From Candidatus Omnitrophota bacterium (GTDB lineage: Bacteria > Omnitrophota > Gorgyraeia > Gygaellales > Profunditerraquicolaceae): a stretch of 41,572 nucleotides of DNA. The translations under genes were made by a program, and so were the position numbers. The stretch is taken from the NCBI GenBank assembly GCA_026387405.1, contig JAPLLV010000029.1, positions 1 through 41,572 on the forward strand, in the 5' to 3' direction. This document shows, piece after piece, positions 12,201 to 39,200 of this stretch. Each line of letters opens with the position of its first letter. Position 1 is the first letter of the stretch. The notes beneath the pieces are model-generated. The model was not told the DNA's origin and did not search any database. It saw only the letters and a list, made by a program, of their open reading frames with translations.

Positions 12201-15200
12201 TCTGCCTAAGTTCATTCACTGTTGCCAGAAGCTTTTTTGCAGACGCTTCCGCCGGGGAAAAAGCCATTTCGCGGATGCGCCGGCGGCAAGAGTCCAGATA
12301 AGCCTCCCACCATTGCGGTTGAAAACTCAAAAGCACCCTCTTGGCGGCGGCCTGGATCGCAGCAGATACAGGACAAGCTCCCCTTCTCTCTTTTAATACC
12401 CGTTGCATTTCATCAATTTCATCAAGCACTGCCAACATCGCCGATAAACTCAAACCGCTGCCGGGCGCGGCTATCGATTCCAGCAGCTTATTAACGCGGA
12501 GCGGTATCCCCTTATCCGTAAAATACCAGTGCCACCATTGGATACCCTCTCTCTTCCCTGTTTTTTCCTCCATGGCCCCTATTAAATTTCTTAATAAAAC
12601 ATACTTATTTATAATACGGCCGCGCCGGGTAGTTTCAAAATAATAAAGTAATGTGTCATTAAAACTCAGGTAGATCTTAAATTTTGCCAGCAGTTGCGCA
12701 ATCCTGACTACGTCTTTATCCTGCAAGGCCTGATAAATTTCCTGTAATACGTTGCGCATAAGCGCTTCCAAAAGCCCTATATTCTGGTGTATTATCAGCA
12801 GCAAAACCAGAATTATATTATTTAGCGGCATCTCCTCTTCGGGAAGCTTACGATACTCCTCAAAGGGAGCATTTAATCTGGCTTTAAAATAAGGATCCTC
12901 CTTTAAACCGTCAATATAGCGCAACAGATCCGCATAATCCGCATTCCTGCCTGGCTCCACGCGGCATCTTGTCTTCTCATTAATATCGGCCAACTCTGCT
13001 ACTATGTGGTCTATCTTGCTATCTATATCTCTCCAGTTTATTTCCCGGGCTTTCACCGGGCGCCCGACTAATACAACTTCTCTTCTCTCGTCTGTGGCTA
13101 TATCGCTTTTATGCACTGCGCGCCGGGCCAGAAATTCATCCGTCCTTACTTCTAAGGAGGGTGTAGCATTGGTGTGGTTTCCCGGAAAAACCCTCTTCCT
13201 TTGTTCAAGGGTAAAATAATGCTCTTCGTCCAATTGCACAAGGATAAACTCCGCGGCAAAAACCAGCGGCAGACCCTCCACCATCTCTGCGCAGAAATAC
13301 CAGGTTTCCTGGCTGCCGGTTGCTTGAGGAGCGCGGAAACTAAAAATAGGCCGGACATTTTCCGCCTGTTGCGGCATAATTACAGGGCACTCCTTCCAGC
13401 GGATCTCTCCGGCCTTAGCTGCCAAGGCGCAGTAAGGCTCCCCGACAATAGGCAGGGCCCTTACAGTTGCCACCTTTGCCTGTAAGAGACCGACTATTGC
13501 CTCGCGCCTGCGGCTGAATATCGGGCTGAATTCATCTTCCCCATCAAGGCCGCGAGCTGCCATGAATTGTTGCGCTTGGCAGGCAGCCTGGGCCTGGGTT
13601 TCTCTTTCAAGGCATATCCTGGCCTGGGCGTCCTGTTGGGCAATTCCTAATTGACGCTCTAATTCAGCTCTTCTCTCTGGATGAACAAAAGGAGAATCAT
13701 GTATCTTGATTTCCTCAAGCCTGCGCAGCCACGCATCAGGCGCTCCTGATCCCGCAGCATCATTAATAAGTTTCTGCACGCGGGCTATCTCCTGCGACTC
13801 TATGGCCTGCTCAAGGGCATCTGTGAGCTCCTTGCTTAGATCATTTAACTGCGCGATATTGATAAAGAGAGTTTCATCGATCTTGATTGCCCGCAGCGCC
13901 TGGATCCGGGCATGATGATCTGTTAATTTTCCGGTCTCTGCAATGCACTGCCGCACCCGGGCGATCTCCCGGGCCTCTATTGCATTCGTTGCTTTTTGTC
14001 TGGCAGTGTTTAACGCGGCCTGCAGATCACCCAGCGTTGCCGGGCTAAGACAGGGATTTATCGTAATTGCCGCGAGTTGCTCCAGCGCTGAACGAGGACT
14101 TTTGTCCGTTACTGCTTGAGCCCCGGCAATAGCTACCCTCGCCTGTCTTTCTACTATCCCCGCGGCTTCCTGCCGGGCAGCTTCTATTTTCTTACCCAGA
14201 GAGTCTCTTGCTCTGGGATCGCTAATACATACGGCAGAGATCCCGCAAAGGGCGGCAAGTTTTTGCCCTGGTTTTAATCCCAGGGAATTTTTATAGGCGC
14301 TCTCCACCTTATCGATAGCCCTGATTTCAGCCTGGGCCAGTTGAATGGTAAATGCTAATTGCGCGCTTAAAGCAGTGTTTAGTAACGGGGAAAGAGTCGA
14401 AGCTTGTTGCCCGCCAAGAGGAAAAGATTTTTCTCTTAGCGCGCAAAGCGCCTTGGACCTTGGCCCTAGCTTCATCCCTGAAGCTTCTTGCATCGCCGTT
14501 TCTATGCGCGCAACCTCTTGCCCTTCTGCGCGCCGGAAGGCCTGCCGGTTTGTTTTTTCCGCCTCTTGTAACTTAGGCTGCTGGGCCTCAATATCAACAA
14601 TCTCTTTTTTCATCAGCACAACCTGCTGCGTTTTACTAGTAATGTCAGATATACTGGCTGCTTCTGCCTGAAGATGCGCCTGTCTTAACTCAAACACAGC
14701 AAGGGCTTCCCGGAGAATTCTCAACTCGGCGCTGAATGCCTCTTGACCTGAGTATTGACCACTCAACCTCTGCGCCGTTGCTATCAATCCCGCAGGTGGG
14801 GTTACCTCTTGCGCAGTAGCGGTATCCAGGAGCTTTAGCGCTATATCTATCAGTTCTTCCCTGGGCTGATCCCTGGCGGCCTCTTCCTGCTTTTGCCTCA
14901 GGCGCCCTAAAGCTGTTTCTGACTCCTGCCGGAGTTGTGCTTTGAGGCCTGCCGCAGCCTGCCTCAATTGATCTCGCGCCCCCTGCAAATCATCCTGCCG
15001 GCAGCCAGCTTTCTGCAGCTGCTCCTCTTCCCGGGCCCGGGACAGCCTTTCCGCTTGCAGATTCAACTCTGCGATTTTTTCCAACGCTGATTTTTGCTGC
15101 CCTGCCAAGGCAGACGCCAGGGGATGAAGGTCTTTCTCGGAGCCATTACCTGCGCCATTTACCATAAATTGCTTAAAATAATCGCGATGGAATGCTATAG

Positions 15201-18200
15201 GTATGCCGCAGACTATCGCCTTAGGGTCAATTTGCTCCGTCAGTATCTTTGATGCCTGCTCATAACTCACAGGCCCTTCTGCCATCACCTCTAACGCATG
15301 CACATAGCTGCTCAATGCCAGGATACTCTGGTCTTCAGTAAATAAAATTCCAGCTTCGCTGATAATTTTTTTTGCTTGTGCCAGATCAGCCAAGCCCAGG
15401 GCTGATCGATAGATCAATAACTCCGTCAAAGCAATATACGCGTAAGGAAATTGCTGGATACATTCCTGGACGCCTCCGGAATCGCTCAAGATCGCCAATA
15501 CCCTTTCTCCCTGGTCATCCTCGGCAATGACGTGGATAGTGGAAGGGTGGCGCTGCAGAAAGCCCATTAACATACCCCGACCATTATCGGGATCAAGGGA
15601 AAGGTTTATCTTTACGAAAATCGCTCCGGTAAAGGCATCGCTAAAAACATCTTCTATATACTTCTGTTCAACGATTATTCTCTGGGCAGTCTCGGCATCA
15701 CCGGCCCTATAATAGGCATTGGCCAGGCGGCCCAGCCAGAAAAGGTTTTGTATGAAGACTTGTTTTTCTTTATCTTTCTTCTTTTGTGCGAGAATTTGCT
15801 GCACATCGCTCCGGCAGGATTCCAGCAAAGTAATGCCTTCAGGATTTCCCCGTTTGATCAACCTTTCCGCACGGTTGATCCTATCAATGACTGTGCGCAC
15901 TGCAGGCTGCGCCTGATTTAATCTTTGCGTTTCAAATTCTTTTCTGCATCCACAAATATATTTTTCTACTGTGCAAACGCCTGCCTTAGGACCATTTCCC
16001 GCGGAGGATGCGGATACTTCTGTTTGTATCGCTGACTGCGTTTCTCTCTCTATCCCGGCTAAAGTGTCCTGAATAGCGGAGATTAAAAGCGCGGCGAGAG
16101 TAACCTGGCCCGCGGAAGCAACGGCAAGCAGATCATCTAACTGGATAGCGCAAAGCATGCGCAGTCTCTCTGTTGCAGGCGCTTGCGCGCTATCTGCAAT
16201 CGCCTGGCGCACGCGCAGGACCTCCTGCTCTTGCTTGTTGAGCCGTTCGGCAGCTTCCGCCTCAAGCTGGACGCGCTTTGCAGCCAACTCTGCTGCGGCA
16301 AGGGCATCCTGGAGTATTTGCACCTCGGGGATGAATGCCTCTTGGCCTGCGTATTGACCGCTCAACCTTTGAGTAGTTATTCTTAATTCCGCAAGCGGGG
16401 TTACCTCTTGCGCAGTAGCGATATCCAGAAGCTTTAGCGCTGTATATATCAATTCTTCCCTGGCCTGATTAGCGCTGACCAGCTCTGCCTGTTCTTGTCT
16501 CAAAGCTTCGCTGGCTGCCTGCAGAGACTGGCTTACTCTTGCCCTTAATTCTTCTGCGGCCTGCCTTTGTTGAGACACTAAAACAAGTTCAGCCGCCTTT
16601 TGCTCTTTCCGGGCAGCCTCTTCTTTTTGCTGCTGCTGCAAGGTCTGGGTTTGGGTTTTCAACTGGGTATTCAGCTCTTCTAATCTGCACAACGCGGCTT
16701 GCCTTTGGCCGGCAGCAGCCTGCACCTGGGGATTGGTATCTTTCAGGAATGCATCCAACCTGGAAGGATCATTAATCCTATTTATTCTTTCGATAACCTG
16801 TTCTACTCGTCCAGATTCCTTGCCTGCCAGCTCTTTGGCTTTTGTGCCGGCTTCAGACACAAGACAGACAAGCTTACTGCCATTGCCTGCGGGCAAACTA
16901 ACTAATCCTAAGGCTGCCAGGCTGCTAAAATCTATATCCGGCGCAAAAAGCCTCTGTAAATTCTCCCAGGCCATAAGCTCCAACTCCAGGTTCAGGCCTT
17001 TTACCCATCTTAGCGCCAGCTCTGCCCTATTCTTAAACCAGGCATTATAAGCTCCCGGTTGCTTATCCTTTAATGGAGCAGGCGGTAGTGTTCTAAAATA
17101 TTGCATCAGCTCCTCCAGGCTTCCCGAAGGCAACGCCTGCAACACAGCTAATAACGCAGCATTAATCTCCCGCGTGGGATGGCGCTCGATAAGGCCTAAA
17201 TTATTCAGCATCGTAAAAAAGTTATAACCTAGCAATTTATCGCGCCTGGTAGCAATAAGCTCATGGGGAATTTTTTGCTCCGCAGGCCATTCTCTGATCA
17301 GGGTTTCCTCGGGAAACAGATTTGCTGCGGCTGAAGGATCTTCTACGCACTTGCCGGTTTTTATAGGGCACCGCTCTTGGGCGCCCAGGAAAACCGGGAT
17401 AGTAAGAATAAAAACGCGGCTGCCGCCTGAATCGGATCCAAGCAGCGCGGGTAATTGTTCTTCAAACACCTGCCTAATGCGCGCCTGTTCAACCCGCTTG
17501 AGGGCCTGAAGGGCAATTGCGGACAACTCCAGGCATTTATCTGACCCGTGCATAAACTCTCTCAAAGCGTCATCCCGGGCAAAACCAGCCCGGCCAAAAT
17601 CCTTGACCATACCTATATTCTGTTGTTCAAAAACCAGCTTAAGGCGTTGATTACCCCGGATCTCCTGGGCAATACAATGCACTAAACCTTTTAAGAAAGG
17701 AGGAGGAGTGAAATTAAGTCCCCGCTCGGTTAATTTGATCTTACTATCAACCATAACGCATAGCTCTTCCCAACTCCTCCCCTGGAATGCGCAAGATAAA
17801 GAATCGGCTGCCTTTAAACGTAAATCAGCTGCGCGATCAAGTTCGGGGTCAGGCTGTAAGTAGGAAGTCTTCATAAGCTGCTGGTGATATGCTTCATCCA
17901 TGCTAAAACAGCCGAACTCAAAAAGCAGATACACATCCCCCTCTCCTTCATCAAGGAAGGCCTGTAACTCGCTGACAATACGCGCTTTATTCGCCGCAAA
18001 ATCAGGAGAGGCCTCTTTGTAAATATGCATTAGCTTCCATTGCGCGGTGAGCCCGGATGATCCCTGGGCAACCCTGGAACACTCCAAAACCGCATTAGCT
18101 ATATTCATAAAAATCTGCCTGGCCTTGGAGGATGGGCTAGAAGGAGATTGCCGGGCCTCATCTAAATCCTCATATAATCTTTTCCTGCTCGCGGAAGGCC

Positions 18201-30200: not shown

Positions 30201-33200
30201 CTATGATTTCGAATGGATATTGAGGATGCTTTTGTAGTATAACTTGTAACTTCCTCAATATACTCTCGAGCCGCCGATCATCGTTATCCACCACCAACAC
30301 GCGCAGGGGGAGCTCTGCTGCGCCGACTTGAGGAGGAAGTTTTTCCCTAAAGTTTCCAAATCCTTCTGCTTGTCTTCGTCCCGTTTTCCTTACGGCAACG
30401 ACAGCTTTCGCCAAAATTTCTTCTATTTGTTTTAAATTAGGACGAAGCTTGCCCTGTATATTTTGTTTATTAGTTGTTATATCACTATGGAGCGACCTCA
30501 ATTCCTGCAAACAGGCATTGGCATTTTCACCAAAGAAATAAGCAGTTTGAACAGCTTGGAAAAGCACACTATAATTTATATCCTCTCTGCGCTTTAATAC
30601 CTCGTTCAATACAGGGCAAACTTTACCAGCCAAATCTTCAATTTTTGTAACTTTAACTGCGGCAAAAATTGCAGCCAGATGGTCTTTTCTACTTATTGGA
30701 TGCTCTTTCGTACTTCTAGTTCTCCAATTAACATCTTCTATATAGCTATTTTTGTGCCTTGCCACCTTACCTAAGTCCTTGAGGAATCTAGCAAACTGAT
30801 TTTCCTTCTTTTGTTCAAATAATAGTTTATTGCTTCTCATCAGCTGGCAAATTAATTCAATTTCTTCTTCATGGCCAGTAGCATAGAATAGGTCTTCAGC
30901 AGTCCCAATGGGGTCGTTGGTAGCTACCGGTATATGTACATTGGGGTCTCCGCAAACCATAAATTCAATGTGCCGAAGAACCGGCGGCGGATTGGCAGAG
31001 GGCACTGGAAGACCCGAACCAACAAGTTTGACATGTTCCGCCAATCCGGGCAAGACAGGAACGACATCAGGTTTTTTTATTTCGGTTCCCGTAGCACTTA
31101 TCATAGAGAGCATTGATCCAATATCATTATCGAGCGACGGCTGAGCCTCTGCCGCTGCTTGACTTTTATTTCTATCTGCGATTTCTTTAAGAAAACATTC
31201 TATTGCGGGCACAAAGGCAGCGATTTGTTCGGCTAAAACACCCAAGGTCAAAATTGCCCCGCTGCGTTCTATGGGAGGCGAGCTTTCCTTAAGAATTATT
31301 CTTGCTTGTTGTGTAAACTCTATAGCGGTAGGTAAAATAATCTTTATTTCAGAGTTAGGGCACAACATGAGGCCTAAAATCTTTTTTACAAACGCAGTCC
31401 TTAGGCCGGCTAAACCCTTTTTTAAAATTTTTTCTAAAATTATCACTAAAAAAGAGTTTACAGTGTCCTTAAATGGAATATTGGGCTGTGTCCAGGCAAT
31501 TAACCTTGATACTGCTTTAAAGCGCTCTTCATTAGTTTTGCCTGCATCAAGAATTATTTTTGCGCTCTGGGAAAAATCAATAGCCATCAACAGTACGGAC
31601 TTTATATCAGAATCCACCCGTAACGCTTCAAATATCACGCATACAGCATCAGGCTTCCATCCTAAAACAAATAAATCATTTTCCAGAATTTCCTTGGCAA
31701 TTAATTCCAGATAAAGATCTACAGCCGGTTTAAAGGTGCCCTCACATGCGGATAAACGCGAAGCTACTGCGGCCCGAACATCATAAGGCTCATTTTCATC
31801 GAGGATTGTTCTTGTGCTTTGGGCAAGATCAATAGCCATAAGCAGAATTAACTTTTTATCAGCTTTGCTATTTAATAATAAACCGGAAATATCATTTACA
31901 GACTCGCGCTTAATCCCCAAATCAAATAATTCTTTTTCTAAAATTTCCTTGGAAATTAATTTTAAAAGCAAGCAGATAAGCGGTTTAAATGCGTCGTTAT
32001 TTTTAGTCAATTCTCCTACCGCGTTTACGCGTTCCGCGCAAGGTTTCTCCCCATCAATTATTGTTGTTACGATTAAGATGAATTTTATAACGGCTATTAA
32101 ATCTTTAGCGGCTTCGTATCTTGGCTCAAGCATAGAATTCAAAATACCCCTTACATATGGTTCCCTCAAAGCCAAAAGAGCTAAAACAAAACCCGCCTTT
32201 GCACGCACATCACGATGTTGTTCTACATTTCGTAAACGTTGGAGGGCGGATATAATAACCGTGCTTCTAAGGTGAACCGGATCCCTATTCTGGCCTTGTC
32301 TTATTACACTCTTAAATAGCTTTAAGATTAATGGCACAAGAGAACCTCCAGAGTGCCTTCCGTTCTCTGTGCTCTCTGCCAGAGTATCTCCAAGAAGAGC
32401 CATAAGACTGCCATCAACCGCCTCTTCCACCACAGCCGGAGCTGTCAATTCCTGATCTATTGGTTTTTCCTGAACAGCCTCCGCTGTTGTTTTTTTGGGT
32501 TTACTCTGATCCGGTCTTTGCGGCTGTTTTTTGAGCGGCCTTTTAATGGCTGGTTTTTTTGCCAGCGGTTTTGATCCAGGAAATAAATCTATAAGAATAA
32601 ATTTTCCCTTATCATCTTTCGTCATTACGACAGACATTTCAGCGGAGATTTTTTCCATTGCCTCTGTATCGTTAATGCCTGTCTTAAAAAATTCAAAATA
32701 ATACCGGATATTTCTCCCTCTAAGAAACTCCAGCGCTTGAGGTAATAGCTTTTTTCTCTCCGCAACCAGCATACTGCCAATAATCACCCCTTGGGCAATT
32801 GAAGATATTTTAGGTTCACCTAATGCTTTCGGCAGGCTTTTCCGTGCCGGGTGAAAAAGAATAAACATTCTTAAGGTTGTTTCGCGCTTGAACGGCCAAA
32901 CCTTGATAATTTCTGCCCCGCGAGTTCCGATTTCTCCCAAAGCTCTTTTTGCCCGCTCTAATAAGTTAAACTCTGAGCTGCCTGAAGCGCTTGTCCCCGC
33001 AAATAACGCCCCGTTACAAAGTAGCGAATACACCCCACCAGCCACGGAAGGAGACGATTCGCTAAATAATACTGACTTTGTAACGGGGCACGGAAGGCAA
33101 GCTAAAAATATGATTACCCCACAGCAGACAACGATTATCAATACTGTTGTTATTATTAAACTTCCTCTTGCCCAAGTTACTACCCCTCCTGCCCCGCGAA

Positions 33201-36200
33201 ATTCCACCGCGGGTCTGGAAGCGGGAGCCGGGGCTTTCGCTCTGGCGTTTCTCTGCAATAAATACCATATTCCTACGGCAAGCAGCGCGGCACAAACCAC
33301 CCCAATCAGCACCAGGCCTATCATAGACCAATGAATAGCTGCCAAAACTCCTGCTCCTGTGGAAGCCTTGCCCGGTAATCCTACAGCCAGGACTAATAAC
33401 AAATGAGCGCCGCCGTTTCTCCCTCTCTTATTATTAGGGTTATTTCTCCCGGTGCTACCCCCTTTCTTTGCTCTATGTCTATTGCCTTGCTTTGCAGCGC
33501 TCCCCACAACTCTATTACTTACCTGAATTTGCTTAACTATTTTTCTGCCCCGCCGTAACCAATACAGACTCGGTAACAACACAGCTAAGCCGCCTCCTGC
33601 CCCATACAACCAATACTTTGCAGCCGGGGATTTAACAGCAGGCTCTATCTGGACACTTGAGGCTTCTCTCTGTGTCTTAAGAGGTTTTATCGCCTCTCTT
33701 TCAAACCAGGCCCGTGCTTCTTTAGGAATATCGAGACTTATTTCAGGTAAAGGACCGAAATGCTCCTCAAACATATCTCCGGCCCAATGCTTAATAGAGG
33801 TAACAGGGGTCTTCAGAAGAATATCGCGGCATATTTGCGGCTCCAACATATTAGTGGACTTTGTCTCTTCCTGAACATCCAACTCAATTGAGCGTAACTC
33901 ATCTTCCGTAGGCCCACGGCCGTACTTTTGCTTAAATTCCTGGATAAACCCTTCGCGCACAAGATTGGCATAACCCTGCCCAACCAAGAAAGTCCGGGTG
34001 ATAATATCCCCCACAAACACATAGGCTAATCTCCGCCCTCTAGGGTATGGTAAAAATCCTAACCGTATCATCGGCAGGTCTTTTGAAAAAGCGTACATAT
34101 CTGCCAGGGTGATTTTAGGAATATCGCTTTCATGAATTTGAACCCAATAGGCCCCCAATTCTTTTCTGGCATTATGCCGGACAGTAGCGGGAACTTGATA
34201 GGCATCAAATACGTTGCTAAGATTGATACTCGGTGGAGTAAACTCCATAGGTAAGGCGGTTAAAGCATGGTATATTTCATGAATAGTTATTTCGCGTAAG
34301 CGGCTCTCCCATACCTCTCTAAACGACCTGCCCTTGAAAGATTCAAGCCACCCTTCATGCGTTCCTCCCTGCGCCTCACGCACCTGCCTAAAGATGATAT
34401 TCATTTTTATAAAAACGTGCCCAGCGCAGTGGTTTGCTTCTGTGATAAGATTAGCGCTCTGGCTTTCCACGAAATGCAATTTTATTGCCTGTCCTTTAAT
34501 AACAATGTCGCGGCTGGTGATAATTTTAGATTCACTAAATAACTGCTGCAGGAACAAACATTCATACAAAGCATTTATATTAAGCCGCTGCGGCTGATTA
34601 ACCGAGCTATCGGGGTAATCGTGCAGATGTTCCTGAATAAACTCTTCTGTCCCGCGCTTAAGTTGTTCCTCGGTAAGATTCATTTCTCTGTGGTTGGCGA
34701 ATTGCCGCGCAATGGTAAGTATATTGTTAGTATTTGCGCCTTCACCAATAGCGAATATCCATATCGCTCCAGATCCAGAGGGAGCCCAGTCATATGAGAA
34801 TTTCAGATTTTCAATACTGGTGTTGATAATCTGCGGGCCAATATTGGTTGATTGGGCTATTGCCTTATGCGCTAAAGGCTGGGCTAAGAAAAAGGGTATT
34901 ATCCCGAGAGCGAACATTCGTCTGATTATTGAGCTTCGCGGAAGCCTTGCAACCACTCCCACCGCGGGTCTGGAAGCAAGAGCTGGGGTTCTCGCTTTAG
35001 CGTTTCTCTGCCATAAATACCAAATCCCCAGGGCAAGCAGCGCGGCACAAACCATCCCGTTCAGCACCAGGCCTATCATAGACCAATGAATAGCTGCCAA
35101 AACTCCAGTAGAAATCTTTGCCCCCGGTAATCCTATTGCCAGGCCGGATAATAGCTGGGCGGTACCCGGGGCTGGACTTAAATATTCCCTGATCGCTGTG
35201 CGCAACTTTTTTATATCATCATTGGCGTGCTGAATTGGATTGCCATAGCCGGGATAGTGCGAAAGCTTAGTCAAGGAATCGTTAAATTGAGTGGGCTTTA
35301 TTTTTGCAAGGTATGTTTCGATCTCCCTAAGGCTCTGGTCGATTTGAGGAAAGACTTCTTGCGCCCGTTCTAATGTTGCTCTTGCCTCCTCCCTGGTAAT
35401 ATTGCGGTTGCCCAATCTTTTTGCCCTTAATTCTGATATCATGCCCCCGATCGTTGCATCAAGGGTTTTTATCCCGCCTTCTATCTCCCCAAATTCTTGA
35501 AATAAGCCCCGCGCAGCGCTAAGAGCGTGAAGGACCCCCACGCCTCTCTGCATTAATTCTGCCTGAGGCCCGGTCACGCGTTGCTCTTCAGGTATGGGAT
35601 TTTCTTGCACTGGAGCAATTTTTGCCCCGATCTTCTCACCTGCCAAGCCCCTGGACAATAAATCTACTAAATCCCCTATTGTCGGCGGCTTTCCAAGAAA
35701 TGCAATACCTAATTTTTGCATATCTGCCTGCTCAACAGCCTGAAGTTCTGCTACTACCCTGCCGGTATGCAATATGCACACGGAGTCATCAAGGACTTCT
35801 TTACCAAGCTCTCCAAACATCCACATGCCTGTTTCTAGCAGCGTCATATCATAATCCGCGATTATAACTTTGAAGGGCTCGTCTGCAAAGAGCACCTTAT
35901 TAAGCCCCTCTCTCCCATTTGTTGCTTCTTCAACTTGTGTAATGCCAATTTTATTAAGCCGCTTAATAGTCTGGGGTCGATATTTTTTATCATCATCCAC
36001 TACTAGCGCGCGGATGTCTAAGAGTTCTACGCTTAAACTTTCGGCAGTAGTATGATCTTTTACTAGTTCGATTCTTTCGTGCAGGATGATCTGATTAGGG
36101 GTCTTTTTTGTAAGCCAGGGCCTTTGAATATAGAGGGTTCCATCGAGGATACCATGTTCGCCATAAACAAGATAGGCTCCAAAGGTGCTCTCCACTACTT

Positions 36201-39200
36201 CTATAATTCTGAAGCGTTGCACTTGCGGAGGGCCTTTGATGCGCCCCTTCTTTACCGCAGCCTTTAACAAGCCGTTGGTGAAAGTATCGGCCATTTTCAG
36301 AGACCTTACCAAAGCCTGCTCCGGCTCATTTACGCTGCCCGTTATTGCTTCGGCTTCCTTTATCTGACGGATGATCTCTTCCCTTGATAGTGTTCCGGTC
36401 CCGCCCTGCGGCCCTTCCTGGCCTGGTATTGAAGTAGGCCTTGGATTAGACCTATCTAAGGCCCGGCGGGGAGAACGCTCGCGATCCTGGGTGCGGGCTT
36501 GCTCCAAAGGCCACTTCTGGGCATAGATATAGGCAGCTAGGGACAGAAGCGCAATAAACCCGACTATAATCAAAACGGCCGCTGCGCAGACTGCCCCCAC
36601 CAGCCACGGAAGGAGTGCAAGTCCGATATTCCGCAGCGGCCGAATGAATGAAAACGCTTTCTTTTTGGCGAAAATAAAAAGTCCTGTTTGTCTCCTCGCA
36701 GAAGACCGGCGGGCGCCGCCGGAGGTACGGGCCTGATTAGGATCTAACGAATGAGTAGCTTGGACACCTTTAATCGCATCCTGCAAACTTAATGCCTCAT
36801 TCCGCTTCACCCCCGAGGTCTGGCTCCTTAGGAGGTGCTCATCTTTGGCTACGGTGGTTACTGCGGCTCCGGGAGGTCCCATCTTTACTCCATCGGGAAT
36901 ACACTTTATACCGGATGTCTGAGTAGCAAAGGTCGCCTGAGAAAAGACATCAAGGGATGATAAATCACTCAAAATTTTCTTTTCCAGGAACGCCGCCACA
37001 TCCGTCGCTAATTTCTTATATCTTCCTCTTTTAAATTGAGCGACGGCCTTGTTTAATAACGGCACCATCTCTTCTTCAAACTCGACTATCTCACTTAAGG
37101 TATAATTAGTAAAAATATCCGCTTTTATATCTTGCCCCGGGACCAGCACAACATCCCTCTCGGCATCGCGGATCCTATTACACCAGGCAAGAATGACCTG
37201 CTTTAATATATACAGCCGCTCCCTATCAGACATAGAAATCCTGAAACTGCGATTAGCCCTCCTTAACAACCGCAATTCCTCCGGGACATCAAAAAACACT
37301 TTTACCGTTTCTCTTTTCTTATCGCTCAACCAACCTAACAACCTTCCATCTAACGCAAATAGCGAGTCAATGCATAAAATGGAATCTTTAGATAGCGCTA
37401 TTCTTTTTCCGGAATGGCGCTTACTATTGCCCGTATCTTTATCATGCGAAGGCAAGTCTATTTCTTTGCCTTCCAACAACGCAAACAGATCTTCTCTCAC
37501 CCATTCCCAATTAAGCGCTTCCGGATGCTCCCAGTTAGCTTTACCAGAGGCGGTCTTGGGAGCGTCTTTTGATGATTTATAATACCTGTCTAAAGACCAT
37601 CGGACAATAACGCCCTCTGCGCTATTTTTAAAATCTTCTCCCAATGCCCTTATAAAAGTAGTCTTGCCTGAGCCGGTACGGCCTCCTAAACAAAAGATTG
37701 CTTTCGCGGTTAGTCTTCTGCGTATCGCTTGATATCCAAGGCTGTTTTTCACTAACAACATCCTTACCTTCTTTTTTTGTATGCTTATTTTTGCCGCTTC
37801 TATCGAAGAACCTATATGGCTTAATCTCTCTACAATACGCTTAAGCAACTGATGTGACATAAAGCCGCCATAAAAGCCTAATAATCTCCTATACCAGCTT
37901 CTCGCCATCCTGCCTTCCTTAAATAAGCGCGCAAACTGTATGCAGGTAACCAGCCTGGTCAATTGTAAAATATTAGCATCTATTTCTTTGGGATTACGGG
38001 AGAAAATACTGGATACCGCCGTGTCTATATCAATATCTTCCAGGGGAAGGTGATGCAAGAGCAAGAAGAATAATATCGCCTGATCGGCCAAGCTCTCAAT
38101 AAACCTAACATCTATGCCTAACATATACCAAATTACATCGTGATGCCGCTCCAGTATCCTCCAATTACGATAATCGCCAAACACGGCTTGCATATCGCCC
38201 CTAACAGCCTTCACTCCTGATAGCGCGGCTAAATCGGATAAACCGACAGCCTCAAAAGTGCTTAGGCAATCCCTAATTTTCTTAATAATAAATCGTACCC
38301 TTACTTCATTAGAGTCATACATATACTTACTCAACTCAGACCTTATCAAACGATAACAATCGGCGATCTTAGCGGAACTTAAGGTATCTGTCTCGTGGAC
38401 CACAAGAGGCGCCTCAGATGCGTATTGCGCGGTATTCCCCACTTTTGCAAAAGGGATGTACTGCGCAAAATCCTGAGTCAATATCCTTGTTCCGAAAGAC
38501 GCGGGGTTGTCGCCCCATTCAGAACCCGGATAAGGAACAGCGACTGAAATCCCTACATTGGTAGGGTCTGCTGTCTTCACAAATTCAATGGTCTTCCTCA
38601 CATCTTCTTCTGTTTCCCCCGGGAGCCCGACCATTATAAACAACCTGACTTCTTCGATTCCGGATTTTTTAGCTAAACTTATGGCCTCAAGATTTCCAGC
38701 GACGGTTGTTCCTTTGCTGTTTCTATCTAATACCGCTTGGGAGCCGCTCTCAATCCCAAATGACAGATGAATACATCCGGCTTCTTTCATCTTACGCAAT
38801 AATTCATCATTCACCTTATCCGTCCTCACCGTTGCCTTCCAAAATATCTCAAGCCTCTCTCGGATAATCATTTCGCACAAGGCCATTATCCTCTTGGGAT
38901 ACACGCCAAACCCATCATCTATAAACGCAAAATACCGGTAGCCTTTTAGATAATAATGCCTTATTTCCTCCATAATGCTTTCCAACGTCCTGTTTCTTAT
39001 GATGAACCCAAAAACGCATTTTGCGCAAAAGCTGCATCGGGAAGGACAACCTCGGGAGGTCAAAATTGGCACCGCTTTATTCTCGGGATTAACAATCCAG
39101 AAATCATAACGCTCTAACTCTTCAGGAGGGATACGGGGGAAGGGAAGTGAGCCTAAATCTCTTATCATCTCAGGCGGCCCGGTGCTCATTATTTCTCCCC

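Follow-up and report, generated by a model that had tools for sequence, protein, structure and literature searches.

The giant open reading frames (ORFs) of Omnitrophota are among the longest genes known. In this study, we describe short mobile hairpins that, on our preferred reading, form a class-wide Omnitrophota family, occur chiefly in the linkers between the domains of giant genes and are preserved as structured RNA of the coding strand; we give this reading a probability of about 0.52. Our starting point was a single stretch of 41,572 nucleotides (the window) from Candidatus Omnitrophota bacterium, in which a giant ORF occupies positions 1 to 41571 of the minus strand, with at least 13,857 codons and open at both contig ends. 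Its domains include Methyltransf, B12-binding + Radical SAM, PRK, Response_reg, Glyco_transf_5 and mannitol DH. As one open frame spans the minus strand, the biologically relevant strand of the core discussed below is CTCCTTCCGTGGCTGGTGGGG.

The first-pass annotation of the window had pointed to two palindromes with a common 21-nt core inside this ORF, and both cores are indeed exact (CCCCACCAGCCACGGAAGGAG at 33033-33053 and 36595-36615, where shuffles expect 0) and flanked by arms. Copy 1 (33008-33089, minus strand; family-I arms CCCCGTTRCAAAG) has the outer arms GCCCCGTTACAAAGT and ACTTTGTAACGGGGC (33008-33022 and 33075-33089) and an inner stem TAGCGAAT/ATTCGCTA; the pairing of its arms is perfect, as had been reported, and extends over 15 bp instead of the 14 bp then given. 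The outer arms of copy 2 (36576-36642, minus strand) are CGGCCGCTGCG and CGCAGCGGCCG (36576-36586 and 36632-36642) and represent family II (CGGCCGCTGCG). Our covariance model R1 matches both copies on the minus strand (33025-33062, 39.1 bits, E 8e-11; 36587-36624, 38.2 bits, E 1.7e-10), and RNA fold z-scores of their coding strands are -5.9 and -4.6, respectively. The two cores are also read in different codon phases, as had been proposed, with the coding strand CTCCTTCCGTGGCTGGTGGGG translated as SPSVAGG in one of them and as LLPWLVG in the second. Copy 2 overlaps a hydrophobic stretch, LLPWLVGAVCAAAVLIIVG, and beside it, at 36650-36661 on the minus strand, sequence reading identified GAAAACGCTTTC, a variant of GAAAGCGCTTTC; GAAAGCGCTTTC-type segments appear to recur just upstream of family-II copies in relatives (L087, L096, L112, L120).

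Searches of relatives and a covariance model, both suggested by the earlier annotation, revealed that the element is widespread. With up to 2 mismatches, the core occurs in 25 of 98 related genomes (reversed control, 0), and a 17-nt core pattern with 1 mismatch finds it in 50 of 129 genomes within the order, where the reversed pattern hits 1; a chance repeat was therefore rejected. At E <=0.001, model R1 matches 72 of 392 genomes of the phylum, all in one Omnitrophota class and including families beyond the order, some of which carry a longer loop variant (CCTCTTCC or CCTCGTCC). An exact scan for the 21-nt core across 85,488 species genomes gave matches solely in Omnitrophota records. In the window's own genome, neither the pattern with <=3 mismatches nor the covariance model found a third copy. 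Such a shortage had been named as an argument against a mobile element; the genome does hold only 2 copies in at least 41.6 kb, yet the many copies in relatives overturn that argument. More than half of the order's genomes have no strict-pattern copy, and the element is therefore not essential. A known RNA family was ruled out, as the Rfam covariance models gave no hit on the element, whether at E <=5 or at the gathering score; the hairpin family is thus previously uncatalogued with respect to Rfam and the open-licence literature that we searched, a description elsewhere being possible. A viral origin was likewise rejected, since the 19-nt core has 0 matches in IMG/VR viral contigs; the 98 stretches returned by a 15-mer scan of IMG/VR were regarded as the background that such a short word would give.

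One architecture is common to the copies. The outer stem varies and is followed by an asymmetric internal loop; the inner stem also varies, with covariation, and is capped by an almost unchanging apical loop, CCUUCC-GUGGCU-GGUGGGG. On the coding strand, an outer arm of 8-17 bp is followed by an A/T-rich asymmetric 5' spacer, an inner stem of about 6-8 bp and the loop region [UA]CC-UU-CC-GUGGCU-GG-UG-GGG, the whole unit measuring about 66-102 nt. Strong arms (score >=9) are present in 41 of 74 copies and in 0 shuffles. The arms had been described as unrelated between copies, which is too simple, as they recur in families (CCCCGTTGSAAAG, GGCCGCTGCGG and others) with compensatory changes. In a gapless alignment of 61 distinct copies, 85% of inner-stem cells are paired and the covariation score is 0.543, against 0.200±0.016 when shuffled (0/500) and <=0.19 in slid registers; the same alignment holds 170 double-change cells versus 66. 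Some arrays contain five to seven hairpins in succession, in which the stems differ and the loop is constant.

Several observations identify the strand on which this structure matters. In 63 of 63 copies, and in 66 of the 71 hits found later by the covariance model, the sense strand gives the more stable fold of the two strands. Beyond the core, G·U pairs are far more frequent than A·C oppositions, at 71:12 for the outer arms and 48:9 for the inner stem (119:21 in total); as selection on the antisense strand would reverse this ratio, the folded and selected strand is the sense RNA. All 133 copies located in long ORFs (upwards of about 500 codons and in most cases thousands) carry the motif on the coding strand (74 pattern copies and 59 model hits) and none is antisense, two opposite-strand rows of the pattern search being 3-mismatch hits that were dropped as chance. 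Stop codons were rejected as the cause of this orientation, given that antisense frames are open in about 34% of cases versus about 44% for unforced sense frames. All three reading phases are used, with counts of 35/14/25 in the pattern set and 17/20/19 in the later model set, and this mixture means that the peptide is not the conserved thing; the suggestion of a nucleic-acid-level element inserted in frame is thereby supported. The later set, in which 59 of 71 hits lie in sense ORFs, 0 are antisense and the other 12 are not in long ORFs, was found by the model itself and is independent for orientation and phase, not for the presence of stems.

The genes concerned are extremely long. Host ORFs run across the entire 10-19 kb fetched around copies, and they reach 48,300 codons in a complete case (G100), more than 39,957 in another (G051) and 30,185 in a third. 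A 275-kb sample of the window's genome, itself without the element, has about 8% of its length in ORFs of >=1,500 codons; against this background, a rough binomial estimate puts the share of copies that lie in long ORFs, 133 of about 147, well beyond chance. The restriction to giant genes is strong, not absolute, as the 12 later hits outside long ORFs indicate. The few intergenic copies mostly lie 50-400 nt after a co-oriented gene. Within the giant genes, copies sit between domains, for example PFK, galactokinase, RelA/SpoT, response regulators and HEAT repeats, and in none of the 30 copies tested does a best Pfam stretch cover the element. The idea that the element helps to expand its host gene is true only trivially, at about 28 codons per copy.

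The mobility proposed for the palindrome is supported by arm-bounded units at different sites and by nested insertions. Pairs of copies in the same genome match up to their arms and not past them (a 66-nt unit in G014; also G067, G003 and G065), and the orthologous loci of G104 and G044 are distinguished by a single 84-nt unit inserted in the loop. Window copy 1 is itself a nested insertion in an older, degenerate element. The inserted 84-nt unit (33009-33092, minus strand) runs CGTG-CCCCGTTACAAAG...CTTTGTAACGGGG between a 5' flank CCTTC and a 3' flank CGTTATTTGCGGGG, and it splits an outer element that we recognised by reading the sequence for its nested signature (32989-33102, minus strand), whose stem GCTTG/CAAGC (33098-33102/32989-32993) encloses, in order, CCTTCCGTG, copy 1 and CGTTATTTGCGGGGA. 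Six such loci are known to us, with units of 84 nt (the window, L133, L103, L101 and L259, all identical in length and in the CCTTC^CGTG junction) or 102 nt (L214). The units lie between CCTTC/CCTCTC and CGTG(GCTGG) with CGTG on each side, the 3' repeat of the window having decayed to CGTT, and the insertion point in the loops of other copies is exactly CCTTC^CGTG. In G429, one outer element exists both uninterrupted (L215) and interrupted (L259). The CGTG that borders nested family-I copies may represent a target-site duplication, though no evident one accompanies the non-nested pairs. For the proposed comparison with insert-free orthologues, searches in two genera gave no orthologues of the flanks, as the linkers of giant genes are not conserved, and nested pairs took the place of wholly empty sites. 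One orthologous pair, L138/L251, is clearly informative: identity is 95.9% for the element and 80% and 66% for its flanks, which suggests constraint after insertion, with gene conversion between copies as an alternative; in the other close pair, L104/L105, high similarity in element and flanks alike leaves the two indistinguishable.

Several known systems resemble this family in part. REP/BIME sequences, with their RAYT (Y1) transposases, are short mobile hairpins whose loops can be insertion targets, and REPs are extragenic. The element shares with them the short mobile hairpin and the loop as insertion target, and differs in being mainly intragenic, in conserving the loop rather than the stem foot, and in lacking a Y1_Tnp association. 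The GC clusters and byp elements of yeast mitochondria are mobile hairpins in coding sequence for which nesting has been reported; byp elements, however, are untranslated, whereas the frame continues through every long-ORF copy of the hairpin described here. Integron attC sites have conserved R boxes at the stem base and occur in cassette arrays; inspection of the arms by eye showed no conspicuous R-box consensus (RYYYAAC/GTTRRRY). MITEs such as ERIC/RU-1, Correia and YPAL are non-autonomous stem-loop repeats, some with target-site duplications, open frames or orientation-dependent effects on mRNA (PMC2229807). Like their terminal inverted repeats, the arms bound the repeated unit; MITEs, in contrast, are mostly intergenic and conserved over their whole sequence, while here the arms diverge with compensation and the loop alone is conserved. 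The packaging signals of single-stranded RNA viruses (MS2, STNV) are many dispersed sense-RNA stem-loops in coding regions, whose stems vary around a conserved loop motif (PMC4751978, PMC3593212), and these two features recur on the sense RNA in our family; the viral signals have a known coat protein, whereas the Omnitrophota element comes without a virus or coat-like partner.

The closest likeness is with the Rickettsia palindromic elements (RPEs), small palindromes of 105-146 bp that lie in frame in protein genes, including ordinary conserved genes, as well as in RNA genes and intergenic regions, are translated through and lineage-specific, and have an unknown mobiliser (PMC2229807). RPEs and their Wolbachia analogues share with the Omnitrophota element the in-frame coding palindrome, some intergenic copies, translation through the insert and lineage specificity. 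The Omnitrophota element is set apart by length (66-102 nt), context and a core that the genome scan matched only in Omnitrophota records, and moreover by its concentration in giant genes, its invariable sense orientation, its conserved apical loop, its covarying stems and its nesting in its own loop. The analogy drawn by the first-pass annotation is therefore apt insofar as both are mobile, work much alike and insert in frame in several frames; it falls short where the Omnitrophota element is fixed in sense (133:0) under an RNA-level pairing constraint, and is not only orientation-neutral selfish DNA.

A purely selfish, RPE-like palindrome would nevertheless account for part of our data. The hairpin, as RNA or as sense-strand ssDNA, would then be the substrate of a mobiliser, the conservation of loop and stem would reflect mobilisation, and giant genes would simply tolerate in-frame inserts; arm-bounded units at unrelated sites, the nesting at a specific site with a CGTG repeat, seen in several families, recurring arm families and a patchy presence all agree with this. 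We regard this explanation as possible but on balance doubtful, since under neutral tolerance one would expect intergenic copies to be numerous and both orientations to occur, while intergenic copies are rare and those in long ORFs never antisense, and since the orthologous copy evolves slower than its flanks. It is also weakened by the missing matches in viral contigs and by the candidate mobiliser genes: among 129 genomes, some incomplete, the element is in 9 of 18 without Y1_Tnp versus 41 of 111 with it (the Y1-less carriers including G044 and G104, which differ by an insertion), and RVT_1, present in 23 of the 129, likewise has no association with the element. Of the candidates checked, a Y1 or reverse-transcriptase mobiliser was thus rejected.

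That the hairpin loop acts as ssDNA, a landing site for domains or hairpins comparable to attC or REP loops that drives domain shuffling in giant genes, appears unlikely. Insertion does occur always at one loop position, copies do lie between domains, and L117, L121 and L122 have only upstream or only downstream neighbours in common; however, the loop inserts observed are further hairpins and never a domain, three reading phases would make cassette exchange frame-unsafe, the arms stay matched across the loop, so that crossovers there are rare, and the richness in G·U points to RNA. The loop contains the E. coli Chi octamer, GCTGGTGG; a Chi site was rejected, as it would account neither for the remaining loop sequence nor for the hairpin or the confinement to giant genes. 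Every copy is open in frame and window copy 2 lies within a hydrophobic stretch, which would suit a conserved linker or membrane motif (PSVAGG/LPWLVG/FRGWWG), but the same nucleotides give three peptides and it is they, not the residues, that are conserved; phase use refutes such a peptide-level feature, which we hold to be extremely improbable, and excludes a paralogous protein segment as well.

Returning to the maintained RNA hairpin, we read the element as a mobile palindrome that has turned, or is turning, into a cis-acting mRNA element. Copies would arise through insertion and be retained between domains, where translation through them is possible, and the RNA fold is under selection on the sense strand. 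The invariant GUGGCU apical loop may be recognised by a trans-acting partner, such as an RNA-binding protein, RNA polymerase or a ribosome accessory factor, and this recognition could influence how transcripts of up to about 145 kb are elongated or handled, or how stable they are; such a role for giant mRNA is what the sequence patterns lead us to propose. The recent nested insertions resemble ordinary transposition, which speaks against this account. In a bolder and rather speculative version, which we think more probably wrong than right, the hairpins would be recognition sites of a dedicated factor for transcribing, protecting or translating messages of 40-145 kb (for example by processive antitermination or mRNA coating), an RNA-level code specific to bacterial giant genes and disseminated by a mobile hairpin whose insertion target is its own loop.

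The roles of Omnitrophota giant ORFs are poorly understood, and no catalytic RNA domains were found in them (Seymour et al.; PMC10066038); the element described here is a structured RNA, not a demonstrably catalytic one. It provides a clear example of mobile DNA under RNA-level constraint within coding sequence, and its loop-targeted nesting makes the insertion history readable. The hairpin can also serve as a sequence tag in the search for a possible binding partner. A conserved, covarying RNA structure inside giant ORFs, independent of frame, always in sense and class-wide, offers a handle on how these messages are made and handled.

The giant ORFs of the window (1-41571, minus strand) and of two relatives' genomes, G100 (C26:29654-174553) and G051 (C62), string unrelated enzymes and regulators into chains, whose members include methyltransferase, B12-radical SAM, PRK, response regulators, glycosyltransferase and mannitol dehydrogenase, with PFK, GAPDH, galactokinase and RelA/SpoT elsewhere. 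These ORFs look like fused operons or polyproteins. The window's giant gene also carries duplicated module pairs of 90-172 nt and 84-90% identity (33204-33351 and 34959-35106; 36798-36887 and 41352-41441; 14699-14870 and 16298-16469), some of which encode a transmembrane segment and linker. Throughout, the inter-domain linkers contain recurrent SSP(V/L/I) peptides (for example in relatives' loci L081, L089, L090 and L123), a possible processing or linker motif.

Family-II elements, named for their outer arms, repeatedly have a GAAAGCGCTTTC-like palindrome immediately upstream (window 36650-36661; L087, L096, L112, L120). At about minus-strand position 18,960 of L101, a family-I-like palindrome, CCCCGTTAGAAAT...ATTTCTAACGGGG, lacks the conserved loop and adjoins nested elements, beside which it is an insertion.

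Complete elements also occur between genes, in the same orientation as their neighbours (L109:8471-8508, minus strand; L125:3331-3368, plus strand), and the L109 copy ends in a terminator-like T-run. Some small genes that follow c-di-GMP-I riboswitches carry, in their leaders and near the start codon, an exact or near-exact complement of the element loop (L097:8003, L131:4030, L110:8013, L134:3317). These complements could base-pair with loops in the giant mRNA.
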